Positions 15,340 through 33,681 of a stretch of 64,000 nt of DNA are shown in pieces. Position numbers and translations under genes: made by a program. The notes under the pieces were generated by a model. That model was not told the DNA's origin and searched no databases. It saw nothing but the letters and a program-made list of their open reading frames with translations. How positions within the stretch are numbered: the stretch's first letter is position 1; the number at the start of each line of letters is the position of its first letter. The DNA comes from Micromonospora sp. NBC_00421 (GTDB lineage Bacteria > Actinomycetota > Actinomycetes > Mycobacteriales > Micromonosporaceae). The stretch spans positions 6,127,001-6,191,000 of the forward strand of contig NZ_CP107929.1 of assembly GCF_036017915.1 (NCBI RefSeq), written 5' to 3'.

Positions 15340-15458
15340 AGGTGTACCCTACCTGAGTGCTCCGGGAGCACCAACCATCATCTCCGCTCATGGTCAATGC
15401 CATCCCGTCTGCCGTCGACCCGCACTTCTGTGGAGCGGGCCGCCGCCCGGCCCGCCAC

Positions 15459-15475
15459 GTCAAGACGACCTTGAC
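15459..15475. repeat. Inverted repeat GTCAAG-N5-CTTGAC, copy 1
   Basis: GTCAAGACGACCTTGAC, a 6-bp stem (7 bp with the flanking C/G) and a 5-nt loop. The same 17-mer with one loop change occurs at 17656-17672 inside rep. Candidate Rep binding or nick-site hairpin. Confidence 0.45.
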
Positions 15476-15963
15476 GCCCGTACGGACGCTGGCGGGTCGG
15501 GCGGTGGTCTGCTCGGCTCGCCCGGGTCGACGGCGGGCGGGATGGCTCCCCACCGCCACCACCCACGGACCGCAAGCCGCCGACGGACCCCCGGCCATCC
15601 TGGAGCCGGAGCGCCCCCGCCGGAGGCGCAGTAACCGCAACCCCGCCACTCGTCCGCCAGCCGCCGACGGACCCGGCGTGCGCTCCCCTACGCCGCGCGG
15701 ACTGCTGGCCGCGCGGGCCCGGCCGGCTGCCGGCCCACCACACCACCGGGAAACGACCTGTCGTCATCCGGCGGCTCACCGGGCTACCCGCCCTCCGCGC
15801 CAGCCGCCGGGCGTGTTGCGTGACCGGAGTCGGAGCGACAGCGGAGCGACGGGCGCGCGCCCAGGCGGCGGCGCGTGCGGCCCGTTCAGGGCCGCCTTGA
15901 TAGACGTACAGAAAGTCCTCCCACACCGGTCGGCAGTCGGCCGCTCTGCGGGTTCACGGCGGG

Positions 15964-15991
15964 TTGACGTGTCCGTACCCGGTGCTACTCT
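15964..15991 (+). promoter_or_regulatory. Candidate rep promoter
   Basis: TTGACG (15964-15969), a 16-bp spacer and TACTCT (15986-15991), close to the actinobacterial housekeeping consensus, pointing to rep about 450 bp downstream. Confidence 0.4.
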
Positions 15992-16445
15992 GGCCCTCGT
16001 CGAGCACGTCAGCGCGGCCTTTCCGCCGGATCGCTGCACTCGACTTCGGAGTTGCCCAGCGGCCTTCCTGCCGCTAACGCGGGTCACGTCCCGCAGGCTC
16101 TCGATCGCACCGGCCACTGCGCCGACCCGGAATCCACTGAGCGGCCCAGCACGGCCTTCCCGCCGTCCACGATGGCCCTCGGATTCACGCACCTCGACGG
16201 ATGGGGATCGCCTGCGGCAACCACCGGAAGCCGACGACCAGGCACCCCACCCGTCCCGGCATCACCCAAGATCCATAGAACCCAGCTCCACGGCGGTCCA
16301 AGGTCGATGGCCTGCACCCGCCCTCCGGCGTGAGCCGCCCTCTCCGGCGGTGCCAGGAGACACCACGAACACCACCAACGGACACCGCTCCGGCGTCCGG
16401 TGGCAGTTCGTCGCCCGTCCCCTGCCACCCCTTGAGGAGAAAGCC

Positions 16446-18005
16446 GTGTCCACCCTCACCGCCGGCCGTGACGCCCAGGCCCTGCACCGCGCCGCCGCCC
16501 CGGACTACTTCGGCTGGCTGGAGCACACCCGCGCTGCCGGAGGCTGCACCCGCCCGATCCGCCTGACCGGCACCCTCACCACCGTCGAACCCGGCACCGG
16601 ACGCGTCCTAGCCGCGCAGCACACCGACGAGCTGCCCGACCGGACGATCTACAAGGCGTGCGGCAACCGCCGTGCCGCCCAGTGCCCGGACTGCGCCTGG
16701 GTCTACGCCGGTGACGCCTTCCAGGTCGTCCGCTGCGGCCTGACCGGCGGCAAGTCCATCCCCGCCACAGTCAACGCGCACCCGGTCGTCTTCGCCACCT
16801 TCACCGCCCCATCCTTCGGCCCGGTGCACCACCGGCACATCCCCCGGCACACCTGCACCCACCGGCGGCGCTGCGACTGCCGTCCCGCACCCTGCCGCGC
16901 CCGGAGCACCGCCGGCACCTGCCCACACGGGCGGCCCGCGGCCTGCTTCACCCGCCACGACGCCGACGACCCGCAGCTCGGTCGACCGCTCTGCCTGGAC
17001 TGCTGCGACCACGACCACCAGGTCATCTGGAACTACTCCTCGGGCGAGCTGTGGCGACGCACGAAACAGGCCATCGAACGCCACCTCACCGCCGTGTGCC
17101 GCCGACGCGGCATCCCCCACGTCCAGGTCTCCACCGACTCCGGCCGAATCCGGCGGGTGCCTCCGGTGCGGGTGTCCCACGGCAAGGTCGCCGAGATGCA
17201 ACGCCGGGGCGCGGTGCACTTCCACGTCCTGCTGCGCCTCGACGGCATCGACCCCGACGACCGGCACGCCCTGGTACCGCCGCCGGCCGGCATCACCGTC
17301 GACGACCTCGACGCCGCCGTCCACGCCGCCACCCGACAGATCACCGTCACCACCCCGCCCCATCCCGACCGCCCGCAGGGCTGGCAGGTCGCCTGGGGTG
17401 AGCAGATCGACGTACGCCGCATCGGCGTCAGCGACGGCGACGTGACCGACGGGAAGGTGGCCGCCTACCTCGCCAAGTACGCCACGAAGTCCACCGAGGT
17501 CACCGGCCACTGCTCCACCCGGCTCACCCCGGACACCGTCGACGCCTACGCCGACCCGGAAGGCGACCACCTCGCCCGCCTCATCGACGCCTGCTGGCGA
17601 CTCGGCCGCCCCACCCGGCACCACGTCACCCGGACAGCCGGGAAGACAGAAGACCGTCAAGGCGACCTTGACACCACATCGAACGAGTACGCCGGGCTGC
17701 GCCGATGGGCGCACATGCTCGGCTACGGCGGCCACTTCCTCACCAAGGCCCGCCGCTACTCGGTCACCTTCGGCCTGCTCCGCGACACCCGCGCCGCCTA
17801 CCGCCGCACCGAGCACACCGGCACCGCTAACAGCGACGACACCGCCGGCACGGTCACCGTGGGCACGCTGGCCTTCGTCGGCTCCGGCTGGCTGACCGAC
17901 GGCGACGCCCTGCTCGCCAACACCGCCGCCGCCCAACGCCGCGAACGCCAGCGCATCGGCCGGGAAGAACTCGCCCACGAGGCGTGGTCGGGGGTGGCGG
18001 CATGA
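16446..18005 (+). CDS. rep: Replication initiator (rolling-circle, HUH, RepSA-like)
   Basis: 519 residues. Predicted to nick the excised circular element and start rolling-circle replication. An N-terminal zinc-finger-like region (RAAQCPDCAWVYAG) and a further Cys/His cluster (residues about 135-200) precede the endonuclease core. GAVHFHVLLRL (about residue 257) is the H-u-H metal motif, and KVAAYLAKYATK (about 343) carries the nucleophilic tyrosine region. The GTG at 16446 has a strong TTGAGGAGAAA ribosome site; longer upstream frames are not coding. It overlaps xis by ATGA, so rep-xis-int form one operon as in pSAM2. Confidence 0.88.
   Translation: MSTLTAGRDAQALHRAAAPDYFGWLEHTRAAGGCTRPIRLTGTLTTVEPGTGRVLAAQHTDELPDRTIYKACGNRRAAQCPDCAWVYAGDAFQVVRCGLTGGKSIPATVNAHPVVFATFTAPSFGPVHHRHIPRHTCTHRRRCDCRPAPCRARSTAGTCPHGRPAACFTRHDADDPQLGRPLCLDCCDHDHQVIWNYSSGELWRRTKQAIERHLTAVCRRRGIPHVQVSTDSGRIRRVPPVRVSHGKVAEMQRRGAVHFHVLLRLDGIDPDDRHALVPPPAGITVDDLDAAVHAATRQITVTTPPHPDRPQGWQVAWGEQIDVRRIGVSDGDVTDGKVAAYLAKYATKSTEVTGHCSTRLTPDTVDAYADPEGDHLARLIDACWRLGRPTRHHVTRTAGKTEDRQGDLDTTSNEYAGLRRWAHMLGYGGHFLTKARRYSVTFGLLRDTRAAYRRTEHTGTANSDDTAGTVTVGTLAFVGSGWLTDGDALLANTAAAQRRERQRIGREELAHEAWSGVAA
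17656..17672. repeat. Inverted repeat GTCAAG-N5-CTTGAC, copy 2
   Basis: GTCAAGGCGACCTTGAC inside rep, matching the upstream copy at 15459-15475 in 16 of 17 positions. It falls just after the catalytic-tyrosine domain is encoded, where coding constraint is low. Confidence 0.45.
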
Positions 18006-18199
18006 CCCGGCACCTCACCCCACGCTGGTACTCGCCTGCCGAGGTCGCCGTCCTGCTCGGCTTCGGTCTGTCCAAGGTCAAGATGAAGATCGCCACCGGC
18101 GAGCTGCGCTCCATCAAGGACGGCAAGTACCGCCGCGTCCTGCCCGAGTGGGTCGACGAGTACGTCCGCGAGCAGGTCCAGCGGCAGGAGGCCGCCTGA
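18002..18199 (+). CDS. xis: Excisionase (helix-turn-helix)
   Basis: 65 residues. A MerR-like winged helix: WYSPAEVAVLLGFGLSKVKMKIATGELRSI, then a basic strand DGKYRRVLPEWVDEYV. It bends DNA at the attachment site to direct the integrase towards excision. It overlaps rep by 4 nt (ATGA) and int by 1 nt (TGATG). The order rep-xis-int is typical of AICEs. Confidence 0.9.
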   Translation: MTRHLTPRWYSPAEVAVLLGFGLSKVKMKIATGELRSIKDGKYRRVLPEWVDEYVREQVQRQEAA

Positions 18200-19416
18200 T
18201 GCCCGGACGCACCCGCGCCAACGGCGAAGGCTCGATCTTCCCGTACCGCAACGGCTTCGCCGCGTACGTCTGGGTCACCAAGCCCGACGGGAAGCGGACC
18301 CGCAAGTATGTCTACGGCCCGACCCGGGAGGCCGTCCACGACAAGTGGATCAAGCTGCACCAGCAGGCCAAGGCGGGGCCGGTCGCTACCCGGGTGCCGA
18401 GCCTTGGTGACTACCTGACCTACTGGCACCGGGAGGTCGTGCGGCCCAACCTCGCGCCGCTGACCTGCGCCACCTACGAGACGATCCTCCGGCTGTACGT
18501 GATCCCCGGCCTCGGCGGGAAGCGGCTCGACCGGCTCCAGGTGCGCGACGTGCAGACCTGGATCAACGAGGTGGCCCGCGCCTGCCAGTGCTGCGCCCAG
18601 GGCAAGGACGCCCGCCGCCCGGAACTCAAGAGGCGCTGCTGCGCGCTCGGCCGGTGCTGCATTGACGTGCCGTCCGCCCGCACGGTCAAGGACGTCCGGG
18701 GCGTGCTGCGCTCGGCGCTCAACCATGCGGCCACCGAGGAACTGGTCACCCGCAACGCCGCCGCCCTGGTCAAGCTCCCACCGGTCCGCCGCCGCAGGGG
18801 CCGGGCGTGGACCAGTGACGAGGCGCGTCGCTTCCTGGAGTCCGCGCGGGCCGACCGCGATCCGTTGTACGCCGCGTACGTGCTGATCCTGGTGCTCGGC
18901 CTGCGCAAGGGTGAGGTGCTCGGCCTCACCGGGGACGCCGTCGACCTGGCGGCGGGGGAGCTGTCGATCGGCTGGCAGTTGCAGCGGGTCGGCGGCCAAC
19001 TGCTGCACCGGGAGACCAAGACGCAGACCTCGGACGCCACGCTCCCGCTGCCGGACATCTGTGCGGCGGCACTCGACCTCCGCCAGCAGGCGAGGAAGGC
19101 CGACCGTGATGAGGCGGGCATCGCCTGGCAGGGCTCCCGGCTGCTGTTCACCACCCGCTACGGAACGCCGGTCGAGCCGCGCAACTTCAACCGTTCCTGG
19201 GATGCCCGCTGCGCCCGGGCCGGAGTCAGGAAGATCACCGTGCACGATGCGCGGCGTACCTGCGCGACGCTGCTCGTCGACCTGGACGTGCACCCGCGCG
19301 TCATCATGCAGGTGCTCCGGCACGCCGAGGTGTCGGTGACGATGGAGATCTATTCGCAGGCGTCCTCGGACGCCACCCGCGACGCCCTCAAGCGCTTGGG
19401 CGAGAGCCTGCGCTGA
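18199..19416 (+). CDS. int: Tyrosine recombinase integrase of element 1
   Basis: 405 residues. Catalyses recombination between attP and the tRNA-Pro 3' end. An N-terminal AP2-like arm-binding segment (GEGSIFPYRNGFAAYVWV) comes first, then a SAM-like core-binding domain with an inserted Cys-rich loop (CQCCAQG, RCCALGRCC, residues about 130-155). The catalytic domain has all expected residues: Arg in LGLRKGE (about 235), Lys in RETKTQ, His and Arg in HDARR (about 348), His in LRHAE (about 374) and Tyr in EIYSQ (about 384). Attachment site 2 lies 78 bp downstream. Confidence 0.95.
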   Translation: MPGRTRANGEGSIFPYRNGFAAYVWVTKPDGKRTRKYVYGPTREAVHDKWIKLHQQAKAGPVATRVPSLGDYLTYWHREVVRPNLAPLTCATYETILRLYVIPGLGGKRLDRLQVRDVQTWINEVARACQCCAQGKDARRPELKRRCCALGRCCIDVPSARTVKDVRGVLRSALNHAATEELVTRNAAALVKLPPVRRRRGRAWTSDEARRFLESARADRDPLYAAYVLILVLGLRKGEVLGLTGDAVDLAAGELSIGWQLQRVGGQLLHRETKTQTSDATLPLPDICAAALDLRQQARKADRDEAGIAWQGSRLLFTTRYGTPVEPRNFNRSWDARCARAGVRKITVHDARRTCATLLVDLDVHPRVIMQVLRHAEVSVTMEIYSQASSDATRDALKRLGESLR

Positions 19417-19493: not shown

Positions 19494-19540
19494 GTCGGGG
19501 TGGCCGGATTCGAACCGACGACCTCTTCGTCCCGAACGAA
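19494..19540. repeat. Attachment site 2: partial tRNA-Pro 3' end
   Basis: 47 bp identical to 33607-33653 of the intact tRNA-Pro gene, with no 5' half. It is the junction of the two elements. With the hairpin to its left, the near-identity to the 33.56-33.65 kb region extends over about 90 bp with a 1-nt length difference. Confidence 0.9.
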
Positions 19541-19634
19541 TGATCATGAATCCTTCAGCAGTGGAAGGGCTTCACTTCACCTCGGCAGATAGTCCATCAT
19601 CGTTCGCCAGAGTCCGCCGACGTGCGGGCCGGTT

Positions 19635-19654
19635 GTCACTCAGTTGGTCACGCA
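19635..19654 (+). repeat. Terminal direct repeat of element 2, left copy
   Basis: GTCACTCAGTTGGTCACGCA, 18 of 20 positions identical to 33539-33558. Each copy has GTCAC twice, 12 bp apart. Candidate arm-type binding site for the element 2 integrase. The rest of 19541-19802 shows no gene. Confidence 0.5.
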
Positions 19655-19802
19655 GTCAAGGATCTTGCGCGCCCGCCTCCGGAGGGAGATGCCTCTTCCG
19701 GCCGCATCTAGTCATTGAGCTGGTCTGATGCCAGCCGAGATGGGTACGAACGGTCGACTTCGGCATGCATTGGGCACAAGGGCTTCCGCACCGGCGGCTA
19801 CA

Positions 19803-20402
19803 TCACTCGATGCCGGGCCGTGAGTGTGGCAGTTCGTGAAGGTAGCCGCTTCGATCGCGTAGCCAGTACCGACCTGCGGCGTCGCGGAACTCAAGGCTGA
19901 CGACAAGCCCGTCATGCCGCTCATCGTCGGTGAGGTCATCGGGGGCGATGTCGTTGACATTCACAATCAGTTCTCCGCGATACGGCGGCACGACCTTGAT
20001 CGGTCGGCTAAGCCAAGATGTCTTTTCGGGGTTAGGCCGATAGAATCTGACAACTGCGTCGTAAATCGGTGATTCGGAGGCATTCACGATCCAGGCACCC
20101 CAGTCGTAGACAACCCAGCCCGATAGGCCCGCTACCACCTGCCTGGCTGTCGTGCTGCGGCCGTACCAGACCGCGACGAGAGACGCCTGACTACGCCTCT
20201 CGTCCGCCCTTCGTTCCCGGCGGTCTAGCTCGGCTCGGGCGTCGCGCCCAGACTCGACCTTGTACACGCGGTATCCGACCATGGCCGCAGCCAGGGCGAG
20301 GATGACGGTGGCGACGTTGGCCAGTGCGCCGATCCACGTTGCCACGTCGCCCAGTTCCCACGGCCGGGTGGCAAGATAGGCCATCGTTGCGGGTGCGATC
20401 AC
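19803..20402 (-). CDS. Uncharacterised membrane-anchored protein
   Basis: 199 residues. One N-terminal membrane segment (WIGALANVATVILALAAAMVGY) is followed by a highly charged helix (ARAELDRRERRADERR) and a beta-rich domain with WIVNASESPIYDAVVRFY and LEFRDAAGRYWLRD. The NASxxPIYDV type of C-terminal domain recurs in small actinomycete membrane proteins of unknown role. It lies 149 bp after the Ntn-like gene and may be in the same operon. The start could be GTG 20402 or ATG 20384; neither has a good ribosome site. Confidence 0.65.
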   Translation of the reverse strand: MIAPATMAYLATRPWELGDVATWIGALANVATVILALAAAMVGYRVYKVESGRDARAELDRRERRADERRSQASLVAVWYGRSTTARQVVAGLSGWVVYDWGAWIVNASESPIYDAVVRFYRPNPEKTSWLSRPIKVVPPYRGELIVNVNDIAPDDLTDDERHDGLVVSLEFRDAAGRYWLRDRSGYLHELPHSRPGIE

Positions 20403-20551
20403 GTGGTCAGGCTAGGCCGCTCCTGCAACAGCCTCGCGGCCGTAGTTGTAGCCGCCGGCAAGTGACTCTGTGCTCTGTAGTGGCTTAGCCCAACTTGCAG
20501 CCCCGACGATCACCGCAGCAGAAGGCCGGGTGTCCCGGCCGATCACAGTCC

Positions 20552-21472
20552 CTAGCCCCGCCAGCCGGGTCGACGCTGCCGGGAAAGTCCACCATAGTCA
20601 AAAACGGGAGAAGAATTTGCGCGCTCGAACGTAATCGGATGCAAGCCACCCCAATGGATATCGGTCAAACCTCCCCGCATCACGAGGGGGGTGGCAGTCA
20701 CATTCGGAAAAAGAATGAATGGAGTATACACATCATAATCAGAAAGAGGGGTTGCGGGCAAATACTTGATGTTGATTCGACCTTCCAGGGACCTTAACTG
20801 AACAGACATGCAATCGGAGCCAATTGTTGAACATAAATCACTTGCTCTTCTAATCGCGGATACCGCGATCTTCTCAAGTACCTCGACCGTGTGGAAAGTG
20901 CCAGGCTTCAAGGCGCTTATTCGTTGCTGAATGTCTTGCTCGGGTCTCGATGTCAGATCCCCATTCGCGAATACATAAAACTTGTCTCGCTTCCAGGTCA
21001 TCGGTCGAGTTTCGGCATGGAACAGTCTAGTGCTATCGCCCCTCCGGCCAGTGTGGTCAAGTCGATAGAAGACCGGCCGTGAAGCTAACCTTCGAACGCG
21101 CTGTTGGCCTACCACCTGGACGGTAAGGGGGGCGCCGTGCGTTGCCTTTAGGTAATGTTGATCAATTGCTTCCCTGAGGCGGATTAGATACCACCCCAGG
21201 TCTCGTTCATGGCCTCGGTGGCCAAAGCGAGTGCCCTCATGGTGATAGCCGGGGTCCAAAATCCTGCTGATCCATACGTCGGTCGGCTCGCCCTTTATGT
21301 GAGCGATACCCGTATACCCGAGCGTTACAGTTGCATTACTCGCTTGAAAGAGTATTGCCTTGTTGGCTGCCGTGTCATGCGGCCTATAGCTCCTCCCTCG
21401 TCTAGTTGTCACCAAGCGATCACTGACATGCAGCGCGAACTCTGGCGTGATAATCGATACAAGTAGCGTCAC
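20552..21472 (-). CDS. Putative stand-alone Ntn-hydrolase (proteasome-like) on element 2
   Basis: 306 residues from GTG 21472, 6 nt after the HAD gene stop. The start MTLLVSIITPEFALHVSDR would, after Met removal, expose Thr1. Asp then falls at position 17, and a Lys follows in ANKAILF (position 37, four past the proteasomal Lys33). A hydrophobic strand and GYTGIA come next, and a later GSDCMSVQL could supply the Asp166/Ser169 region. This fits the N-terminal-nucleophile hydrolase pattern of HslV/20S beta subunits. The remaining about 200 residues are unfamiliar. Family assignment is inference; no such activity is shown. Codons are visibly AT-richer than in the chromosome. Confidence 0.6.
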   Translation of the reverse strand: MTLLVSIITPEFALHVSDRLVTTRRGRSYRPHDTAANKAILFQASNATVTLGYTGIAHIKGEPTDVWISRILDPGYHHEGTRFGHRGHERDLGWYLIRLREAIDQHYLKATHGAPLTVQVVGQQRVRRLASRPVFYRLDHTGRRGDSTRLFHAETRPMTWKRDKFYVFANGDLTSRPEQDIQQRISALKPGTFHTVEVLEKIAVSAIRRASDLCSTIGSDCMSVQLRSLEGRINIKYLPATPLSDYDVYTPFILFPNVTATPLVMRGGLTDIHWGGLHPITFERANSSPVFDYGGLSRQRRPGWRG

Positions 21473-21478
21473 GGGACG

Positions 21479-22174
21479 TTATCCGCCAATACGTTTGATC
21501 AGAACCTCGGCTATCTCTATCATGTCTGTGATTACCACATCCGCCGAGGCGGCTTGGAATTCCTCAATCTTGGCCTGTCGATTCGCATACCCAACCACCC
21601 GAACACCGGCCGCCCTCGATCCCTCAATGTCGGAAAGTGAGTCACCGATCAGAACGCATCGACGCGGCTGTTCGCCGAGGACTCGGACGGCTTGCAGGAT
21701 AGGTGCCGGATTGGGCTTCATGTAATCCGGAGCGGAGTATGCCCGGCCGACTACTGGCGATACGCAGCTGGCTAGCCGATGAGCTGCCAGGTAGGCACCC
21801 ACCGCACCGGCTGAGTTGTTGCTGACCACTGCCACCGGGATGCCGGCCTGCCGGGCTGCCACGATGACTTCCCGGCCGTACGGCGTGGGTTCGGCAGTCT
21901 CGACGGCGCGGCGCTCGGCTGCGCAGAGTGCGTCCTCTACCGCCCGCGTGACGTCCTGGCCGCTGGTTGCGCCGACGCGGCGTAGCACCTCTAGCGGGTC
22001 TGGTTCGCCGGCCAGGTCGGGCGGCACGTCGACGCTGTGCTTTCGAAGGACGTCGACCAACTCGGCGGCAACCTGCGGCGCCGGGTAGCCGGCGAAGACG
22101 CTGCACACTGGGCCGTCGAAGTCGAGCAGCAGCGCGCCGACCCCGGCTAGTAACCGGTCAAGGTCGGCGTTCAT
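21479..22174 (-). CDS. HAD-family phosphatase
   Basis: 231 residues. All four HAD motifs are present: LLLDFDGPV (nucleophile Asp and acid Asp), VVSNNSAGAV (motif II), KPNP (motif III lysine) and GDSLSDIEGSRAAG (motif IV). A helical cap lies between motifs I and II, as in phosphoglycolate-phosphatase-like enzymes of subfamily I. The substrate is unknown. The ATG overlaps the stop of the upstream GntR gene (ATGA) and the next gene follows after 6 nt, so GntR, HAD and the Ntn-like protein are co-translated. Confidence 0.88.
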   Translation of the reverse strand: MNADLDRLLAGVGALLLDFDGPVCSVFAGYPAPQVAAELVDVLRKHSVDVPPDLAGEPDPLEVLRRVGATSGQDVTRAVEDALCAAERRAVETAEPTPYGREVIVAARQAGIPVAVVSNNSAGAVGAYLAAHRLASCVSPVVGRAYSAPDYMKPNPAPILQAVRVLGEQPRRCVLIGDSLSDIEGSRAAGVRVVGYANRQAKIEEFQAASADVVITDMIEIAEVLIKRIGG

Positions 22175-23037
22175 GCGTCGTACCGGTAGGCGATGGTCGA
22201 CCACACGGAGTCGAACCACTGGCGGGACGCTTCCACGAACTGCGTGCCGTGGGAGGCGTCGTCATCGGTCACCGCGTAGTGGAATAGCGGCACGTCCTTG
22301 CCCATTAGGTCGTAGATCGCCATGGGCTCACCCTTGATCGAGACGGTGCGCTCGACTACAGGATAGAAGCCGTAGAAGACCTCTTCGCCGTTCAAGATGT
22401 AGAGCTTGAACAAGGGCGACGCTCGATGCACCCGTACCTCTACGGTGGTCGATCGGATCAGGCCGAGGTCGCCCAACTCGGCCACTTGGTCGATGATGCC
22501 GTCTGCCGCCCGGCGCGTGATGCGCTCGGCTCGCTCTCGCACCGCCGGATCATCCGCCTGAGTCTCAGCCCGAGCGGGCAGCGCCATGGGCATCGTCATG
22601 TCAGAGATCAGCACCCGTACCGCGATCGTCTCCGGCGCGAGCCTGCCCACCCGCACCTTGTCGAGCGCTTCGGCAAGCGCGTCTCGCAACGTCTCGCCCG
22701 AGAACCCGGCGAAGTCGATGGTGACGTGCGGCCTCTCGAATGCGGCTTCGATGTGTGGCCGCAGCTCTACGGCTCGCTGTGTCTGCGCCCGGACGAACGC
22801 GCCGCTGCCCTGCCGGGACACGATCAGCCGTTCCGCGCGGAGCAGGTCTAAGGCTCGCTTGACTGTCTCCCGCGCAACGCCGTACCGGGCGGCTAGGTCG
22901 GGTTGTGACGGCAGCTTGTCACCGGGCGCGAGTCGACGCGTGAGGATGGCCGCTCGCAGCTTGTTCGCGATCTGCTGCGAAGCCTGTTTGGGGTCGTCGG
23001 GGTCCAGTTCGCCGAGGAAGTCAAGGTTCTCGCTCAC
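22171..23037 (-). CDS. GntR-family repressor (UTRA-like C-terminal domain), element 2 master regulator
   Basis: 288 residues. The N-terminal winged helix (KQASQQIANKLRAAILTRRLAPG, LPSQPDLAARYGVARETVKRAL, RQGSGAFVR) is followed by an effector-type C-terminal domain of about 190 residues. I start it at GTG 23037. The 9-codon extension to TTG 23064 would run through the first operator palindrome. Three related palindromes lie just upstream, one of them inside the rightward promoter, so it probably represses itself and the transfer operon. This matches the role of KorSA/StoR-type regulators, which is family knowledge. Confidence 0.88.
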   Translation of the reverse strand: MSENLDFLGELDPDDPKQASQQIANKLRAAILTRRLAPGDKLPSQPDLAARYGVARETVKRALDLLRAERLIVSRQGSGAFVRAQTQRAVELRPHIEAAFERPHVTIDFAGFSGETLRDALAEALDKVRVGRLAPETIAVRVLISDMTMPMALPARAETQADDPAVRERAERITRRAADGIIDQVAELGDLGLIRSTTVEVRVHRASPLFKLYILNGEEVFYGFYPVVERTVSIKGEPMAIYDLMGKDVPLFHYAVTDDDASHGTQFVEASRQWFDSVWSTIAYRYDA

Positions 23038-23052
23038 CCCCTCACGGTAGCG

Positions 23053-23069
23053 CTGACTAGCCAAGTCAG
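23053..23069. promoter_or_regulatory. GntR operator site 1
   Basis: CTGACTAGCCAAGTCAG, a 6-bp inverted repeat (CTGACT/AGTCAG). It lies 16 bp upstream of the GntR GTG, where a repressor would block its own transcription. Confidence 0.65.
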
Positions 23070-23088
23070 GAAAGTTCGCCGCACCCCC

Positions 23089-23118
23089 TTGACCTGACTA
23101 GCCAAGCCAGCTTAGGTT
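23089..23118 (+). promoter_or_regulatory. Rightward transfer-operon promoter containing operator 2
   Basis: TTGACC (23089-23094), an 18-bp spacer and TAGGTT (23113-23118). The spacer consists almost entirely of operator site 2, CTGACTAGCCAAGCCAG (23094-23110), which differs from site 1 by one base. A repressor bound there would exclude RNA polymerase. The first gene served is at 23499, leaving a 380-nt leader in which I see no gene. Confidence 0.6.
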
Positions 23119-23132
23119 CATCAACGTCCGAC

Positions 23133-23149
23133 CTGGCTAGCCAGGCAGG
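23133..23149. promoter_or_regulatory. GntR operator site 3
   Basis: Contains the perfect 14-bp palindrome CCTGGCTAGCCAGG (23132-23145), which shares the GRCTAGCCARG core with sites 1 and 2. The sites are spaced about 40 bp apart, roughly four helical turns, so they would lie on the same face of the DNA. Confidence 0.6.
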
Positions 23150-23498
23150 GCAAGCCGAACGGAAGTCGGGGAAGGTTGGCGCGCGCCGCGCCGCACGCCC
23201 ACGGGCCGCTCGTGTGGTCGTTCATTGAGAACTTCACAGCAGAAGCGCCGCGTTTGATCCGTCTGCGGCATGTCCGCCTTGATCCACATGGTGGCCGACC
23301 TCGGTAGATCCCGAGCGAGCGGACCGAGTGGGCTGATCTTGGCGCGCGGTTGCTTCTGCCTCTGATCCCCCGTCGTGGGTGGGGTCGCGCTGTCCTGGCG
23401 CGGCCCCCGGCCCCGGCGCTCTGCTGCTGGTCCGTGTGACGCCCGGACCGCCCTGTCTACCCAACCTGACCTACCCCTGTGGGAGAGGTGATCCCGCT

Positions 23499-23666
23499 AT
23501 GTCCGTGATTGCTACGTGTGTGCGTGTCACGACCAAGAGCCGCGCTACCTGGCGTACCTGCACGGCGTGCGGGGCGCTCGCTCCGCTGGCCCCTGACGAG
23601 AACTCCTGCCGGGCTTGCCCGCAGCCGGTGCGTTCTCGCCGTACCGAGAGGAACCGATCGAAGTGA
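23499..23666 (+). CDS. Small zinc-ribbon protein, first gene of transfer operon
   Basis: 55 residues. The C-T-A-C and C-R-A-C pairs (WRTCTACGALAPLAPDENSC) make a zinc ribbon; the C-terminus is strongly basic. GAGAGG precedes the ATG. The stop overlaps the next start (GTGA). Probably a small nucleic-acid-binding accessory protein of the element. Confidence 0.6.
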   Translation: MSVIATCVRVTTKSRATWRTCTACGALAPLAPDENSCRACPQPVRSRRTERNRSK

Positions 23667-23908
23667 CCCCCGCCGAGATGGAGCCGACCCCGGTTGACCT
23701 GGCCGCGATTGACGCCGAGTGGCCGTTGATCGCCGCTGAGTTGGACGTGCTCGACGCTGAGATCAGCCTGTTCTACGCCGACGACCGGGGCGGCCCGTCG
23801 CCGTTGGACTGGCGCAGGTTGCGCCGGGCCGAAGCCCGCGTCACCCGCGTCGCCGCCGAGATGGCCGGGCGACCGGCCACCGGGCAGGCCGCGTTCCGGG
23901 TCGCCTGA
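23663..23908 (+). CDS. DUF6284-like small protein
   Basis: 81 residues from GTG 23663, overlapping the previous stop by 4 nt. The sequence VDLAAIDAEWPLIAAELDVLDAEI followed by DWRRLRRAEARVTRVAAEM is the helical DUF6284 pattern seen in transfer operons of actinomycete elements. Function unknown. It overlaps the following gene by 1 nt. Confidence 0.68.
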   Translation: MTPAEMEPTPVDLAAIDAEWPLIAAELDVLDAEISLFYADDRGGPSPLDWRRLRRAEARVTRVAAEMAGRPATGQAAFRVA

Positions 23909-24276
23909 TGCCCCGCATCCGGGCCGCCTTCCACGATCCGGACGGCAAGCGGTTCGGCATCCCTACCTACTGGTGGCAGGGTGCCCCGCCCGGTTACGCC
24001 ACCCGCCGTCAACTCCGTGCCGCAGGCCTGCGGCCTGCCGGGCAGCCGATCGCTGCTCAGGTGCTCTGGCGTGGTGTCGGCGGCATCCGCGCCGCGTACC
24101 TGTACCGGGTTGATCTGGCCCGACCGAAGCGCACCGCCACCCCTGCCCAGCTCCGCGCCGTCCGCGCCGCGCTGACCGCTCGCCGTACCTGCCGCATCTG
24201 CGAGCGGGTGCAGCCCTACTACATCCCGCGCTCGCTGAACGAGTGCCTTGACTGCTTCGAAGGAGTCCCCTCGTGA
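23908..24276 (+). CDS. RRQRL-motif zinc-binding protein
   Basis: 122 residues. GKRFGIPTYWW, TRRQLRAAGLRPAGQP and AAYLYRVDLARPKRTATPAQ form the conserved core of the RRQRL-motif family of AICE proteins. The C-terminal CRICERVQPYYIPRSLNECLDC has two CxxC pairs for zinc. The role in transfer or replication is unknown. Start and stop are both overlapped by neighbours (TGATG and GTGA). Confidence 0.75.
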   Translation: MPRIRAAFHDPDGKRFGIPTYWWQGAPPGYATRRQLRAAGLRPAGQPIAAQVLWRGVGGIRAAYLYRVDLARPKRTATPAQLRAVRAALTARRTCRICERVQPYYIPRSLNECLDCFEGVPS

Positions 24277-24386
24277 TCTGGCTGTTCCTGATCCTGCTGG
24301 GCGGGCCGCTGGTGATGCTCGCCCCGTTCGCCCTGGCCCACGCCCTCAACAGCGCCACCCCGACCGTGAAGGAGACGCTGCGATGA
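24273..24386 (+). CDS. Very small membrane protein in transfer operon
   Basis: 37 residues from GTG 24273, which overlaps the previous stop. The sequence VIWLFLILLGGPLVMLAPFA is one membrane-spanning helix, followed by AHALNSATPTVKETLR. An AAGGAG ribosome site lies 8 nt upstream. Its own end overlaps the next ATG by 4 nt, so it sits in a chain of coupled genes, which supports real coding despite its size. Confidence 0.6.
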   Translation: MIWLFLILLGGPLVMLAPFALAHALNSATPTVKETLR

Positions 24387-24724
24387 CCGTCCGTAAGACC
24401 CGCCGCGCCGTGATGGCCGAACTGATTCTGCTGGCCGACCCGGCCTTCATCCGGGTTCACACCCCGGGCGTGTCGCTGTCGGTCACCTTCGACAGCGTCG
24501 CCGCCCTGAAGTCGTGGCTGCATCTGGCTGGACTCGACGACCCGGACATGCTGGTCGGCGAGCACGACGGCACCACCGACGACGGTCGCCCGTACCGGTC
24601 GATGAACGCCTATCCGACGTGGCACGGCTGGGAGTTCTACGCCAGCGCCACCGAGTACACCGACCCTGTCGAACCGCTCGACTCGTCGACGGCTGACCGG
24701 CTCGCCGCGTTGGCGGTGGCCTGA
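24383..24724 (+). CDS. Uncharacterised AICE protein
   Basis: 113 residues. Begins MTVRKTRRAVMAELILLADPAF and contains VSLSVTFDSVAALKSWLHLAG and a C-terminal YPTWHGWEFYASATEYT. A soluble alpha/beta protein with no known motif, coupled at both ends (ATGA and TGATG). It is regularly part of such operons, by position, but the function is unknown. Confidence 0.65.
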   Translation: MTVRKTRRAVMAELILLADPAFIRVHTPGVSLSVTFDSVAALKSWLHLAGLDDPDMLVGEHDGTTDDGRPYRSMNAYPTWHGWEFYASATEYTDPVEPLDSSTADRLAALAVA

Positions 24725-25593
24725 TGACCGCGCCGACGCTGAGCATCTACCCCCGAACGGTGGACGAGTTGATGCCCGAGGCGCACGCCCTGGTCGCCCG
24801 TCTCGGCACGGTCCCGTCGCGGAACCGGATCAAGACCGAGTTGCGGGTGGGTGGTCCGAAGGCGGACGCCATTATCGACCGGCTGACCCGCCCCCCGGTC
24901 GACCCGGCCACCACCCCGACCGGCAGCACCCCCGCCCCGGACGCCGCCGACGGGCCACCGGTCGACCTGGACCCGCACCCGGACGCCGACCCGCCCGCGC
25001 CGGACGCGCTCACAGCCCCGGTGCCGCCCACCCCGCCCACCCCGCCCGCCCCGGCCCCGGCCCCGGACATGCCCGAGGCACCCGACGTCGCGTCGGGGCA
25101 GGCAGCACCCGCCGTAGACCCGGGTTCCAACATCACCACCACCCGGACCGCCGGCCGTCCGACGGGCCGGGGGTGGGCGTACGTCGGGGTGATCCTGGGC
25201 GGGGTGGTGTCGATCGCGGCGAACGTGGCCCACACCTACCTGCCGAAGCCGGCCGACGGCACGCCCGCCGGTTGGGCACCGGACCCGGGGTGGTCCCCGT
25301 CGCCGCTGGCGGTGGCGTTGTCGGTGTTCTGGCCGGTCGCTCTGTTCGTGACGGTGGAGATCCTGACGCGCATCCCCTGGGGCGACGGAGTGAGTTCGGT
25401 GTTCGCCCGGGTGGCCGGTGTGCTGCCGGTCGCGGTGGTCGCCGCCGTTGTGTCCTACCGGCACCTGTCCGGGCTGCTGGCCCACTTCGGTGAGGACCCG
25501 CTCACCATCGCCATCGGCCCTCTCGCTGTCGACGGGCTGATGGTGATGGCGTCCGCTGCGCTGCTGGTGACCAGCCGCCGCAGCCGTTCCTGA
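24724..25593 (+). CDS. DUF2637 membrane protein (SpdB-like spread protein)
   Basis: 289 residues. An N-terminal HTH-like segment (VARLGTVPSRNRIKTELRVGGPKADAIIDRL) is followed by a long Pro/Ala/Asp linker (residues about 55-150). The C-terminal domain has about four membrane helices, including AYVGVILGGVVSIAANVAHTYL, LSVFWPVALFVTVEIL and VLPVAVVAAVVSYRHL. This is the DUF2637 architecture found in Streptomyces plasmids and AICEs, proposed to help spread the element through the recipient mycelium. A hairpin follows at 25600. Confidence 0.82.
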   Translation: MTAPTLSIYPRTVDELMPEAHALVARLGTVPSRNRIKTELRVGGPKADAIIDRLTRPPVDPATTPTGSTPAPDAADGPPVDLDPHPDADPPAPDALTAPVPPTPPTPPAPAPAPDMPEAPDVASGQAAPAVDPGSNITTTRTAGRPTGRGWAYVGVILGGVVSIAANVAHTYLPKPADGTPAGWAPDPGWSPSPLAVALSVFWPVALFVTVEILTRIPWGDGVSSVFARVAGVLPVAVVAAVVSYRHLSGLLAHFGEDPLTIAIGPLAVDGLMVMASAALLVTSRRSRS

Positions 25594-25599
25594 CCCCGC

Positions 25600-25645
25600 C
25601 CGGCGGCACAGCCCCATGGCCTGGAAACCCGTGCTGTGCCGCCGG
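25600..25645 (+). terminator. Hairpin inside the transfer operon
   Basis: A perfect 13-bp stem (25600-25612 with 25633-25645) and a 20-nt loop in the 92-bp gap after the DUF2637 gene. It is not followed by a U-tract. It could attenuate or process the transcript, since the remaining operon genes point the same way. Confidence 0.5.
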
Positions 25646-25685
25646 TCCGGTCACCCAACCCCCATGTGAGAGGAGGGCATCTCTG

Positions 25686-26153
25686 ATGGTGCCAGTACCC
25701 GACCCGGCGTGGTTCACCGACCGGATCGCCGAAGTCCGCGCCGAGCTGGCGCGCGCCGACACCAAAGCGTCCACGTTGATGGCCGTCGCCGGTGCGGCCG
25801 TGACGGTCGGCGTGGCGATCCTCGCCCGCACTGACCTGCCCGGCCCCGCGCTGGCCGCCGGGGTCACCACCGTCGCCCTGGTCGGCACGGCGGTGGGACT
25901 GCTGGCCGGTGCGGTCCGCCCGTGCCTGGGCGGTGGTCACGGCCTGATCCACTACGCGGCTGCTGCGCCGGGTGACCTGATGACCGAGGCCACCGCCGCA
26001 CCGCTGACCGCCGCCGCCGAACGGGCGCACCACCTCGTGTGGCTGTCCCGCACGGCCATCCGCAAGTACCGGCGGGTCCGCACCGCCGTAGATCTGCTGC
26101 TGGCCGGCCTGGCTGGCACCGCGCTCACTGCCCTGCTCGCCACTCTCGCCTGA
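25686..26153 (+). CDS. Pycsar-effector-like (PycTM/DUF5706) membrane protein
   Basis: 155 residues. An N-terminal helix with ARADTKASTLMAVAGAAVTVGVAIL, a second membrane segment (AAGVTTVALVGTAVGLLAGAV), a cytoplasmic helical pair (LSRTAIRKYRRVRTAV) and a last membrane segment. The ADTKAS start and overall layout match the DUF5706/Pycsar TM effectors, which bind cUMP or cCMP and damage the membrane in anti-phage defence. No nucleotide cyclase gene is adjacent, and the position within a transfer operon suggests a transfer or spread role instead. The ATG has GGAGGG upstream. Confidence 0.7.
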   Translation: MVPVPDPAWFTDRIAEVRAELARADTKASTLMAVAGAAVTVGVAILARTDLPGPALAAGVTTVALVGTAVGLLAGAVRPCLGGGHGLIHYAAAAPGDLMTEATAAPLTAAAERAHHLVWLSRTAIRKYRRVRTAVDLLLAGLAGTALTALLATLA

Positions 26154-26175
26154 CTGATCACGAAGGAGTCGTTTC

Positions 26176-26553
26176 GTGTCGAACACCAGCCCGTCGGGTC
26201 GCACGTTGTTCTCCGGTGCGGATTCCCTGACGGATAACCACGCTTTGATCGAGTGGTGCGAGAGCACCCGCCGAATTCTGCACGCCGCCGCCCTGGAACT
26301 CGGGATTACCGCCAGCGAGTTGGACGCCCGCTTGCGTCGGGTCGGCGGTGGAGCCGTCGTGGTCGGTGGCTTGACCGCGCGGGCGCGTGCCCGGCAGGTC
26401 GCCAAGCCGATCCAGCAGGCCAGTGAGGCTCTGGTGATCGCGAGTCAGTACGTGATCACGGCGAACAACCGGTTCGTCACCGCCTACATGCCCGAGTTGG
26501 AGCAGGTCGGCTACCGGGGCACCCGCCGCCCCGACTTCAAGTTCACCGCCTGA
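26176..26553 (+). CDS. TraA-like small transfer protein
   Basis: 125 residues from GTG with a GAAGGAG site. Pattern GRTLFSGADSLTDNHALIEWCESTRRIL, a central GLTARARARQVAKPIQQASEALVIASQYVITAN and a basic DFKFTA end. Short helical proteins of this layout precede traB in AICE transfer operons and are named TraA in some annotations; I recognise the resemblance only weakly. It is 20 bp from traB. Confidence 0.6.
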   Translation: MSNTSPSGRTLFSGADSLTDNHALIEWCESTRRILHAAALELGITASELDARLRRVGGGAVVVGGLTARARARQVAKPIQQASEALVIASQYVITANNRFVTAYMPELEQVGYRGTRRPDFKFTA

Positions 26554-26573
26554 TCAGGAAGGGAGGAACAGTC

Positions 26574-28508: not shown

Positions 28509-28527
28509 CCCACCGTCACCACACCCG

Positions 28528-29013: not shown

Positions 29014-30078
29014 ATGTTCCTACACGGCACCCGGTGCGGGCACTGGATCGGCACGGAACGGCGCTACTGCCACCACCCCGGCGGTGTCCGCCCCTACCTG
29101 CAAGGGCCACGCTGCCCGGCCCACACCCCCAACGCCCTGGCCGGACGGCCCGAGCCCCCATCGACGTCCCTGAACGAACCCGAGAGGAGCGCCATGCCCG
29201 ACACGTCTCCGCTGGTCGCCGCCGCCCTCACCTACGCCCGTCGCGGGTGGCCGGTGTTCATGCTCGCCCGCTCGAAACGACCCGTCGCCAACTGCCAGCC
29301 CTGCGCCGACGCCGGCCCCGACCACGACCGGGAAGGCTGCGTGTGCCTGACCTGCCACGGCTTCTACGCCGCGAGCACCGACCCGGCACGGGTCGCCGCG
29401 ATCGTGGCAGCCGTGCCGCGCGGGCAACTCGCCATGCGCACCGGGGCCGCGTCCGGGACGGTGGTCGTGGACGTAGACCCACGGCACGGTGGTCACAACA
29501 GCATGGCCGCGCTCATCGCCGAAGGACTCCTACCCCGCACTCGTTACGCCGCTACCGGGTCCGACGGGCTGCACCTGTACTACCGGCACCCCGGAATCTC
29601 GGTGATCTCCCGGCCGATGCCCGGTCGGCACGGCATCGACATCAAGGCCGATGGCGGCTACGTGGTGCTGCCGCCGAGCAGACACCAGCGCACCGGCCGC
29701 CCGTACCGGTGGGCTGACGGCGAACACGACCTGATTGAGATGGCCCCCGCCCTGCTCGACGCCTGCCAGGCCACACCGACCCGCACCGTCAGCGACACGA
29801 CCAGGTCGACCCGCACGCCCGGGGGAGGGGCCATCTCATCCCCTGACGCGTTGCTCGCCTCCATCCTGGCCACCGTCGCCGCCGCCCCCAAGGGACGCCA
29901 CCGCGTGACCCTCTACGGCGCCGCCCGAGGCGTCGCCCGGATGGTCGCCGCCGGGGCCATCAGCCACGCCGACGCGGTTGTCGCTCTCACCGACACCGGC
30001 CGCGCCGCCCAGCAGACCGAACGCGAAATCCGCGGTGCCATCACCGGCGGATTCCGAGACGAAGGAGTTGCCCCATGA
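29014..30078 (+). CDS. Bifunctional DNA primase/polymerase (Prim-Pol) with N-terminal Cys/His module
   Basis: 354 residues. From about residue 61 it is an archaeo-eukaryotic-type Prim-Pol: GWPVFML, a zinc-like Cys cluster (NCQPCADAG, CVCLTCHGF), the catalytic VVVDVDPRHGG (about 152-162), TGSDGLHLYYRHP and GIDIKADGGYVVLPPS. The first 60 residues, with HGTRCGHWIGTERRYCHH and GPRCPAH, look like a separate small zinc protein fused in frame. Both ATG 29014 (GGAAGGAG) and ATG 29194 (GAGAGGAG) have strong ribosome sites, so two products are possible. It overlaps the next gene by ATGA. Confidence 0.87.
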   Translation: MFLHGTRCGHWIGTERRYCHHPGGVRPYLQGPRCPAHTPNALAGRPEPPSTSLNEPERSAMPDTSPLVAAALTYARRGWPVFMLARSKRPVANCQPCADAGPDHDREGCVCLTCHGFYAASTDPARVAAIVAAVPRGQLAMRTGAASGTVVVDVDPRHGGHNSMAALIAEGLLPRTRYAATGSDGLHLYYRHPGISVISRPMPGRHGIDIKADGGYVVLPPSRHQRTGRPYRWADGEHDLIEMAPALLDACQATPTRTVSDTTRSTRTPGGGAISSPDALLASILATVAAAPKGRHRVTLYGAARGVARMVAAGAISHADAVVALTDTGRAAQQTEREIRGAITGGFRDEGVAP

Positions 30079-31382
30079 GCCACGCCGACCAGGTCGACGG
30101 TGCCGCGATCCTCGACGCCGTTCATGCCGCGCTGACCCGCTACGTCGTCCTGCCCTCCACCGAGGCAGTCGACGCGGTGGCGCTGTGGGTTGCAGCCACC
30201 CACGCCCAGGCCGCGTGGGCGCACGCGCCCCGGCTGGTCATCCGCGCGCCGGAACGGCGCTGCGGCAAGTCCCGCCTCCTCGACGTAGTCGAGAGCACCT
30301 GCCACAACCCGCTCATCACCGTCAACGCCTCGCCGGCCGCCGTCTACCGCGCGATCGGCACTGACAACCCGCCCACCCTGCTCATCGATGAGGCCGACAC
30401 CATCTTCGGCGGGAAGAACGCCGACGCCAACGAAGACCTACGCGGCCTGCTCAACGCCGGTCACCAGCGCAACCGGCCCACCATCCGATGGGACAACAAC
30501 ACCCGCAGCCTGGAGAAGATCCCCACCTTCGCCATGGCTGCGCTCGCCGGCATCGGCGCGATGCCCGACACCATCGAAGACCGCGCCGTGGTCGTGCGGA
30601 TGCGCCGACGAGCCGCCGGGGAGAAGGTCGCCCCGTACCGGATGCGCCGCGACGGCCCGCCGCTGCGCGCCCTCGCCGAGCAGCTCGCCGCGTGGCTACG
30701 CCCACACCTGACTGCCCTGGAAGCCGCCGAACCCGCCATGCCCCTGGAAGACCGCGCCGCCGACACCTGGGAACCCCTTATCGCCGTTGCCGACCTGGCG
30801 GGCGGCACCTGGCCCGCCCGCGCCCGCAAAGCCGCCGACATCCTCACCACTGAGCACACCGACACCGCCGCCGCATCCGACCGCATCCGGCTCCTCGCGG
30901 ACTGCCGCACCGCCTTCGGTGATCTCGACGCCATCCCGACCAGCGTCCTGCTCGACCGACTCCGCGCCGACCCCGAAGCACCCTGGGCCGACTACGGCCC
31001 CGCCGGACTTACCGCCGTCAAGCTCGGCACCCTGCTGCGCGAGTACGACATAACCTCGGCGAACATCCGCTTTCCCGCCCCGATCGGCCAGGTCAAGGGC
31101 TACCAGCGACACGCGTTCATCGACGCGTGGACCCGGTATTGCCCCCTGCCCGACCCCACCCCCGCACCCGCGCCGTCCCACCCGTCCCACCCGTCCCTGC
31201 CCAGCTCAACCCCGGGACGGCACAACCCGTGGGACGGCACGACCCGTCCCAACCACCACCCCCACCGGGACGGGTCAACCCGTCCCGCCCTCCAAGCCGT
31301 CCCGCCCCTGACGAGCGCAGGGACGGGTGGGACGGGTGGGACGGACACCCCCCGCAACCACGCCAACGGTGGTGCGGCATGA
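30075..31382 (+). CDS. DUF3631 ATPase, replication helicase-like
   Basis: 435 residues. P-loop RAPERRCGKSRLLD (about residues 57-70) and Walker B TLLIDEADTIFGG (about 101-113) precede the conserved DUF3631 core (RGLLNAGHQRNRPTIRWDNN, IPTFAMAALAGIGAMPDTIEDRAV). Such proteins pair with Prim-Pol in AICEs and plasmids as a replicative helicase-like partner. The last about 70 residues are low-complexity Pro/His/Ser because the DNA there is a repeat cluster. Coupled by ATGA to the Prim-Pol gene and to xis. Confidence 0.87.
   Translation: MSHADQVDGAAILDAVHAALTRYVVLPSTEAVDAVALWVAATHAQAAWAHAPRLVIRAPERRCGKSRLLDVVESTCHNPLITVNASPAAVYRAIGTDNPPTLLIDEADTIFGGKNADANEDLRGLLNAGHQRNRPTIRWDNNTRSLEKIPTFAMAALAGIGAMPDTIEDRAVVVRMRRRAAGEKVAPYRMRRDGPPLRALAEQLAAWLRPHLTALEAAEPAMPLEDRAADTWEPLIAVADLAGGTWPARARKAADILTTEHTDTAAASDRIRLLADCRTAFGDLDAIPTSVLLDRLRADPEAPWADYGPAGLTAVKLGTLLREYDITSANIRFPAPIGQVKGYQRHAFIDAWTRYCPLPDPTPAPAPSHPSHPSLPSSTPGRHNPWDGTTRPNHHPHRDGSTRPALQAVPPLTSAGTGGTGGTDTPRNHANGGAA
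31173..31344. repeat. Iteron-like CGTCCC/GGGACG repeats at the end of the DUF3631 gene
   Basis: Twelve copies of CGTCCC or its complement GGGACG in about 170 bp, many extended to CCCGTCCC/GGGACGGG and some phased at 9 bp (GGGACGGGTGGGACGGGTGG). The encoded tail is disordered, so selection is probably on the DNA. Candidate replication origin or second transfer locus. Confidence 0.55.
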
Positions 31383-31627
31383 CTAACCGCCTCGGCCCAG
31401 CGATGGGAGGACACCCGTCGGTGAAGACCTCGGCTGGCAAAGCCCTCTACCGGATCACCGAAGCCATGGGCCTACTCAGCATGAGCCGCACCGTCATCTA
31501 CCAGGAGATGCGCGCCGGTCGACTCCGCTACGTCCGCCAGGGCAGCGACCGCCGCATCACTGCTGCCGCCATCACCGAATACGTCGCGCTGCTAGAGCGG
31601 GAGACCGCACAAGGAGTTGCCGCCTGA
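31379..31627 (+). CDS. xis: Excisionase (helix-turn-helix)
   Basis: 82 residues. ALYRITEAMGLLSMSRTVIYQEMRAGRLRYV and QGSDRRITAAAITEYVALLE form the MerR/Xis winged helix. It starts at ATG 31379 overlapping the DUF3631 stop; a later GTG at 31421 would remove 14 residues. It ends in a TGATG overlap with int. Controls the direction of site-specific recombination. Confidence 0.88.
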   Translation: MTNRLGPAMGGHPSVKTSAGKALYRITEAMGLLSMSRTVIYQEMRAGRLRYVRQGSDRRITAAAITEYVALLERETAQGVAA

Positions 31628-32790
31628 TGAGCAAGCGTCGAAGCCGTGGCGACGGCGGATTGCACTGGGACGAAGCCCGTCAACGCTGGATCGCATCCGT
31701 CACCACCGGCTACACCCCCGCCGGGAAGCGCATCGTCCGCCGAGGCAGCGGCAAGACCAAGACTGAGGCCAAGGCGAAGCTCAAGGAGGTGCTGCGCGAC
31801 CACGAAGACGGCCTGACCATCGCCCCCCAGGGGTTCACCGTTGCCGATGCGGTCAATGACTGGCTAGCGTACGGCCTCAGCGGCGTGGCCAAGGGCACCG
31901 TCGACAAGAACGGGTATCTCTGCCGGGGGCACATCATTCCCGCTCTCGGCGCTCGCAAGCTGCGCGATCTGGGCGCCGAGGACATCGACCGATGGTTGGC
32001 GGACAAGTCCAAGACGCTGAGTACCCGCACGCTTCGGGACCTGCATGCCTGCCTGAATCGTGTGGTGAACCGGGCTATGGCCCGTGACAAGGTCAAGCGA
32101 AACGTGGTGGCGCTCTGCGCGACTCCGAAGGGGCAGCAGGGCCGGCCGTCGAAGTCGCTGACGCTCGACCAGGCCAAGACGCTGCTCAGCGCTGCCGAGG
32201 ACACCCGGCTATACGCCTACGTCGTGCTGTCTCTGCTGACGGGTGCGCGGACCGAGGAACTACGGGCGCTCACCTGGGAACACGTCGACCTCGACGGCCG
32301 ACCCGATGCCGACCCGCCCGTGCCGCCCTCCATCTCGGTATGGCACTCGGTGCGTGCCGGTGGTGACACCAAGACCAGGAAGTCCCGGCGCACCTTGGCG
32401 CTGCCGCTCCGGTGCGTGACCGCACTCCGACGACACCGTTCATTGCAGGACCGAGAGCGAGAGAAGGCCGGGAATGGCTGGCAGTCTCGGAACCTCGTGT
32501 TCGCGAACGTGGTCGGCGGTGCCCTGGACGCGGCCAACGTGCGGCGAGCATTCCGCCGGGTGGCGAACAAGGCGGGACTCACGGCTGCGGACTGGACGCC
32601 GCGTGAACTCCGGCACAGCTTCGTGTCCGTCCTGTCCAGCAGCGGCGTCAGTCTGGAGGACATCGCCGATCTCTGCGGACACTCCGGCACCACGGTCACG
32701 GAGAAGATCTACCGGCACCAGCTCCGGCCCGTGCTTCTCAGCGGCGCGGTCGCCATGGACCGCATCTTCGCTATCACCTCTGAGAGGTAA
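31627..32790 (+). CDS. int: Tyrosine recombinase integrase of element 2
   Basis: 387 residues. An N-terminal arm-binding domain (GDGGLHWDEARQRWIASVTTG), then a core-binding domain, then a catalytic domain with Arg in TGARTEELRAL (about 206), Lys in KTRKSRR, His and Arg in RELRHSF (about 328), His in CGHSG (about 351) and Tyr in KIYRHQ (about 361). It differs throughout from the element 1 integrase yet uses the same tRNA site. The attachment site lies about 820 bp downstream, farther than in element 1, because two small leftward genes are in between. Confidence 0.95.
   Translation: MSKRRSRGDGGLHWDEARQRWIASVTTGYTPAGKRIVRRGSGKTKTEAKAKLKEVLRDHEDGLTIAPQGFTVADAVNDWLAYGLSGVAKGTVDKNGYLCRGHIIPALGARKLRDLGAEDIDRWLADKSKTLSTRTLRDLHACLNRVVNRAMARDKVKRNVVALCATPKGQQGRPSKSLTLDQAKTLLSAAEDTRLYAYVVLSLLTGARTEELRALTWEHVDLDGRPDADPPVPPSISVWHSVRAGGDTKTRKSRRTLALPLRCVTALRRHRSLQDREREKAGNGWQSRNLVFANVVGGALDAANVRRAFRRVANKAGLTAADWTPRELRHSFVSVLSSSGVSLEDIADLCGHSGTTVTEKIYRHQLRPVLLSGAVAMDRIFAITSER

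Positions 32791-33604: not shown

Positions 33605-33681
<77 letters not shown>

Follow-up and report, generated by a model that had tools for sequence, protein, structure and literature searches.

A lone proteasome-like threonine hydrolase carried as exchangeable cargo of a Micromonospora integrative element, with a probable role in defence

A stretch of 64,000 nucleotides from Micromonospora sp. NBC_00421 (contig NZ_CP107929.1, positions 6,127,001 to 6,191,000; the whole stretch is hereafter the window) encodes a 306-residue protein which, judged by its predicted fold and catalytic residues, belongs with the proteasome-like N-terminal nucleophile (Ntn) hydrolases. The explanation we favour, at a probability of roughly 0.57, is that this hydrolase is a self-activated proteasome-like Thr hydrolase with a short C-terminal tail, carried as slot cargo by an actinomycete integrative and conjugative element (AICE) and serving as a defence or superinfection-exclusion factor. 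A preliminary description of this DNA had recognised a proteasome-type Thr hydrolase and tentatively joined it in one pathway with the two genes preceding it, a GntR regulator and a HAD-family phosphatase; the enzyme assignment has held up under closer analysis, the shared pathway has not. The genes and sites of this locus are as follows:

20552..21472, reverse strand: proteasome-like Ntn hydrolase, 306 aa, GTG start, with Thr1, Asp17, Lys37 and Gly54 in mature numbering
21479..22174, reverse strand: HAD-family phosphatase, a backbone gene of the AICE, ATG start (Pfam PF00702, 9.8e-15)
22171..23037, reverse strand: GntR regulator, likely GTG start (Pfam PF00392, 1.4e-19)
23053..23145, unstranded: three operator-like CTGRCTAGCCARG sites, at 23053, 23094 and 23132/23133
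19803..20402, reverse strand: second cargo open reading frame (ORF) of the slot, 199 aa, with an N-terminal hydrophobic segment, between the attachment site (att) copy and the hydrolase

The hydrolase reads MTLLVSIITPEFALHVSDRL...NKAIL...GYTG...GSDCMSVQL, with Thr as residue 2; counted from this Thr as residue 1, Asp is residue 17 and Lys residue 37, and both this numbering and the later GSDCMSVQL were verified on the ORF as originally claimed. In an 18-row alignment of the window hydrolase and 17 relatives (among which the CarolAnn and Ruthy rows agree at 96%), invariance is confined to the columns M1, T2, D18, K38 and G55, a pattern judged to exceed chance; M stands for any start codon (ATG in 10 rows, GTG in 6, TTG in 2). 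Thr follows the start codon as residue 2 in all 18 rows, among which L010 begins at a contig end and several have a frame that stays open further upstream. The invariance of Asp, Lys and Gly is partly selected, because the search patterns held the Asp and Gly stretches and one of them also the Lys stretch, while Thr2 was in no pattern. Equivalents of Asp17, Lys33 and Gly47 of the proteasome-like Ntn hydrolases thus appear to be present, at the level of the alignment, as D18, K38 and G55. The spacing from Thr to Asp is that of the proteasome (T1, D17), and the active site is kept across rows with a median pairwise identity of 24% (15 rows).

Structure prediction followed by a structure search gives the hydrolase the fold of a proteasome subunit, an alpha-beta-beta-alpha sandwich, and a proteasome-type fold is near certain on the strength of this model. 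The best structural matches are Anbu and 20S proteasome beta subunits, and most of the Anbu alignments begin with model residue 2 opposite residue 1 of the chain. The tail, residues 244-306, is mostly of low confidence in the model and lies outside the proteasome matches. The preliminary description had named a different fold, or homologues with another kind of residue in second position, as findings that would count against a proteasome-type Thr hydrolase; the predicted fold is proteasome-like and residue 2 is Thr in every row. Sequence searches with the hydrolase gave no match in Pfam or among PDB sequences, both at E up to 10, none in PHROGs at E up to 1, and none in NCBIfam. Filing it under Pfam PF00227 (Proteasome) was rejected, as that curated model did not match it, and 0 Pfam families were returned even at E 10.

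A host aminopeptidase would cut off Met and expose Thr1, so that a propeptide would seemingly not be needed, and Thr1 would form a catalytic site with Asp17, Lys37 and Gly54. The enzyme may act alone or as a homo-oligomer, and would cut or modify a phage protein, a protein of a competing element, or a host target upon infection.

The setting in an AICE, as first proposed, is borne out by tRNA-Pro repeats, an integrase and replication genes, and the element can be delimited by the following features:

19494..19540, unstranded: att-like copy of the tRNA-Pro 3' end, left end of the hydrolase element, 47 bp identical to 33607-33653
33605..33681, reverse strand: tRNA-Pro (CGG), right end of the element
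31627..32790, forward strand: tyrosine integrase of the element (Pfam PF00589, 1.4e-21)
29014..31382, forward strand: replication genes (Prim-Pol, PF09250, 2e-39; DUF3631, PF12307, 2.9e-68)
21473..21603, unstranded: slot border, where the backbone similarity in DNA breaks off with the 3' end of HAD (blastn, 29 other loci)

A shorter, imperfect copy of the tRNA-Pro 3' end lies at 10108-10143. Because of the tRNA-Pro gene and the copies of its 3' end at 19494 and 10108, the stretch 19494-33653 is taken to be a single element that carries integrase, Prim-Pol, DUF3631 and DUF2637 genes. It combines a tyrosine integrase, tRNA att repeats, replication genes and a GntR regulator, all of which are features of AICEs. 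For a TraB/FtsK-type transfer protein, ORF 26574-28508 was checked; it gave only an AAA_30 match (5.4e-5, under the model cut-off), and was the only one of ten window ORFs scanned against Pfam to show a generic AAA match. Next to the hydrolase element, on its left, lies a second one, which has a RepSA gene and an integrase of its own (15357-19416). Two distinct AICE-like elements accordingly stand in tandem at tRNA-Pro in the region 10108-33653, where tRNA 3'-end copies lie at 10108, 19494 and 33607.

Within the element, the hydrolase and the 199-aa ORF, which has no Pfam match, occupy the stretch between HAD and the left att copy. The coupling of the three genes was confirmed in its geometry: the GntR ORF (22171-23064, reverse strand) closes with TGA at 22173-22171, the HAD ATG (22174-22172) shares the ATGA at 22171-22174 with this stop, and the hydrolase GTG at 21472 follows the HAD end (21479) after a 6-nt gap, its ORF ending at 20552. 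The GntR start has been moved. Its ORF opens at TTG 23064; GTG 23037 is probably the true start, since 10 of 29 near-identical genes have an in-frame stop, at codon 6 or 9, ahead of this GTG, and the TTG falls within an operator-like repeat. The three CTGRCTAGCCARG sites upstream of GntR are spaced by about 40 bp, have no other match in the window against 0 expected in shuffles, and are probable operators.

This arrangement had prompted the idea of a common pathway in which GntR would control transfer, HAD would make or remove a small-molecule signal and the hydrolase would process a target, and the ATGA overlap and 6-nt gap do make one transcript likely. Several comparisons speak against such a module, which we regard as mostly refuted and highly improbable. 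Of 160 genomes of the genus, 52 have GntR at E<=1e-40, own genome included, and a survey of the 51 others with the hydrolase profile (E<=1e-3) matched none. HAD, by comparison, stands behind GntR in 37 of 38 stretches fetched from other genomes, at 42-82% amino acid identity (it is absent behind GntR in L085, and that of L072 is in two pieces). In blastn with 29 other loci, similarity spans GntR and HAD in 28 of them and stops at 21487-21603, where HAD reaches its 3' end; in the remaining locus, L054, which lacks HAD, it stops at 22161. Base composition also differs, with 53% G+C in the hydrolase, 65% in HAD and GntR and 71% in the window. Around relatives of the hydrolase, tblastn over 3 to 18 kb found no HAD at 15 of 15 loci and no GntR at 14 of 15, the sole hit being a MocR-like ORF 3 kb away in L016. 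The functional module was therefore rejected. These comparisons indicate that GntR-HAD is the backbone of this AICE family, and that the hydrolase is exchangeable cargo that landed directly behind HAD; read-through expression of the hydrolase from GntR-HAD is plausible, though incidental. Of the suggested signalling, immunity or defence role, a defence-type function is favoured by the context, and the pathway shared with GntR-HAD is left unsupported.

That context is a slot of variable content, bounded by HAD on one side and the attachment site on the other. A set of 30 slot proteins, taken from 22 of the 38 genomes fetched, was scanned against PADLOC, and 12 of them matched at E<=1e-5: a DzbB-like protein, two type II restriction-modification pairs, a type IV nuclease-like protein, two RmrA, a HATPase matching a type II REase model, a UvrD-type helicase, PDC-M55C and DarG. 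Pfam adds slot proteins with MrcB_N, HEPN, Schlafen-AlbA and PIN-TPR-GreABC. Among chromosomal control ORFs, 1 of 32 matched at the same threshold (mad2, 8.8e-9; Fisher p 4e-4), and the other five PADLOC families found in controls reached best E-values of 5.4e-5 or weaker. The slot behind HAD (L057-L096) also holds proteins with neither a PADLOC nor a Pfam match, for example in L059, L061 and L072, which could be undescribed defence systems.

Relatives of the hydrolase also lie in phages. Both CarolAnn gene 36 and gene 30 of Nymphadora point leftward and are flanked by the tail genes and the integrase, and relatives in this position occur in phages of two Gordonia clusters. According to the accessible text of the CarolAnn study (PMC6426606), lysogens transcribe genes 38, 39 and 43-45, with genes 34-36 at a lower level; gene 36 by itself is nowhere mentioned in that text. 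The CarolAnn lysogen lowers the plating of Wizard, Monty, Woes, Blueberry, UmaThurman and Utz (Table 1 of that paper), and all six plate normally on a strain with genes 43-45. Nymphadora, which is blocked by gp43/44 (PMC6426606), itself carries a hydrolase relative. The defence of CarolAnn lysogens is explained only partly so far.

A bolder proposal, which we hold tentatively and consider doubtful, is that lone self-activated proteasome-like Thr hydrolases are used against phages by AICEs and temperate actinophages alike, with CarolAnn gene 36 as all or part of a second defence system that blocks phages such as Wizard, Monty and Woes.

Searches of phages by tblastn gave 6 records with relatives, from CarolAnn, Blino and Ruthy, all phages of Gordonia, and the structure search led to Nymphadora, whose gp30 carries the same motif and is present in 9 phage records of 6 phages. 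Genome searches, own genome included, gave 2 of 300 for the family, 5 of 396 for the phylum, 5 of 397 for the order and 4 of 160 for the genus, the last two counts including G221, a match (E 8.5e-4, profile 230-317) judged likely spurious, with no hydrolase-like ORF at its site. Contig scans by pattern added four relatives among 30 hits, from Nocardia, two Mycobacterium and Marinimicrobium, and viral contig scans gave 4 of 41 and 4 of 45, from the same four contigs. Plasmids searched by tblastn with three queries held no relatives, phages searched with the G233 relative gave no matches, nor did single-protein scans of genome and viral contigs, and among 20 genomes of the class searched with the L010 protein only its own genome matched.

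Part of the context of these relatives was taken by eye from lists of ORFs. In L017, a SIR2_2 gene stands back to back with a Mycobacterium relative (5470-6921, 7001-7966), in a stretch that also holds a tRNA-Arg (2524-2598), and in L016 an HNH-like ORF (8002-8874; assigned by eye, no Pfam match) begins a few bases after a Mycobacterium relative. More distant relatives in L007 and L008 (from 1501) have long C-terminal regions beyond the hydrolase part, which by eye appear repeat-like in L007 and TPR-like in L008. A link between the 199-aa window ORF and the ORF beside the G233 relative was discarded, as blastp gave no significant hit.

Several observations weigh against the favoured explanation. 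At the sequence level, support for kinship with the proteasome is weak: a PrcB profile matched the hydrolase with Prob 39.5 (E 3e-4) and left the Thr/Asp/Lys part uncovered, while the PrcB+PrcA profile reached Prob 3.1, the PrcA profile 0.2 and a single PrcB 0.3. With controls at 0.1 for a reversed beta subunit and 0.4 for an unrelated HAD, no lower than the single PrcB, profile scores were dismissed as proof of PrcB kinship. The CarolAnn authors, in the accessible text, propose gene 39 and not gene 36 as a further defence candidate (PMC6426606), and one phage relative (L009/L018) has a broken frame and sits among virion genes. As for the slot, the window hydrolase was outside the set scanned against PADLOC, slot proteins were selected by eye, only the window and probably L061 show where the slot ends on its outer side, and 12 of the 22 scanned genomes have no scanned slot protein at E<=1e-5. 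At E<=1e-3 the contrast shrinks, as 15 of the 30 slot proteins then match but so do 4 to 13 of the 32 controls, a range reflecting 13 member-family matches whose members were not told apart. One of the 33 ORFs listed for the control (from L060, 1066 aa) was dropped without good reason, and the requirement of a third-position G+C >0.82 made the control lean to core genes; this bias and the choice by eye weaken the contrast.

Other functions for the cargo have to be weighed. The hydrolase might serve its own element, by cutting a repressor or transfer protein such as GntR or by blocking redundant transfer like Pif in pSAM2; it adjoins GntR-HAD and the att copy, and AICE-borne conjugal immunity is known in the form of Pif, a Nudix protein (PMC3218068, accessible text). 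We consider such a role improbable, as the family also occurs in phages and other loci without this GntR, and other AICEs with this GntR are without the hydrolase. An unlikely alternative as regards chemistry is a non-proteolytic Ntn enzyme, either a protein ligase or an amidase or acylase acting on a small molecule. Connectase, a monomeric proteasome-like protein, is a ligase according to the part of PMC8665760 available, a lone subunit without an AAA+ partner may not be a general protease, and the tail lies outside the proteasome matches; against this, no substrate or pathway gene was recognised beside the hydrolase. Non-proteolytic chemistry would in any case be compatible with a defence role.

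The gene might also be a passenger or decaying, with no current function, given that AICE cargo is often pseudogenised, as far as the consulted text of PMC9513070 goes, and that relatives in L006, L009 and L023 are short or broken. Yet the ORF in the window is unbroken, keeps every invariant residue and has its start codon correctly placed, and the retention of the active site in such divergent rows makes this quite improbable. The reading as a self-activated hydrolase with a defence-type role is preferred: a protein of this fold sits in a slot that elsewhere often holds defence-type genes, and its CarolAnn relative is transcribed in a lysogen whose defence is only partly explained.

The closest known systems are the proteasome-like homologues of Fuchs, Alva and Lupas (2021), who describe 22 prokaryotic subfamilies and, in the accessible text, report no genomic context suggestive of a specific function for these families (PMC8665760). 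Like those homologues, the hydrolase combines the Thr1/Asp17/Lys33/Gly47 pattern and the proteasome fold with no apparent propeptide and no co-occurring AAA+ partner. Our likeliest guess for a published subfamily, compared by distribution and extra C-terminal part only, is the distant actinobacterial proteasome homologue (DAH), which is marked in that source as occurring in Actinobacteria and phages and as having an extra C-terminal part; the words Gordonia and conjugative are absent from its main text. PPH and AAH are likewise carried by phages, as are the hydrolase relatives, but PPH has about 140 residues against 306, and no Actinobacteria-specific phages carrying AAH were found by Fuchs et al., on the accessible text (PMC8665760). 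Unlike Anbu and 20S beta subunits, the hydrolase lacks a PF00227 match, has 306 aa with a tail, and is encoded alone; two adjacent PF00227 genes belonging to the host itself lie at C1:1908259-1909577. Restriction-modification cargo of AICEs and prophage-mediated defence genes of actinophages share its position in the element or phage, and predicted protection cargo has been reported for AICEs (PMC9513070, accessible part); a proteasome-like hydrolase is not named among such cargo or defence genes in the available text of PMC3218068, PMC9513070 and PMC6426606. A literature search on a proteasome-like defence protein yielded by title only PMC8665760 as relevant, an absence that is weak, subscription papers being thinly covered. 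What is added here to the known proteasome homologues is the link between a proteasome-fold hydrolase and a defence-type slot, and with it, through the CarolAnn lysogen, the function of lone proteasome subunits becomes a simple plating question.
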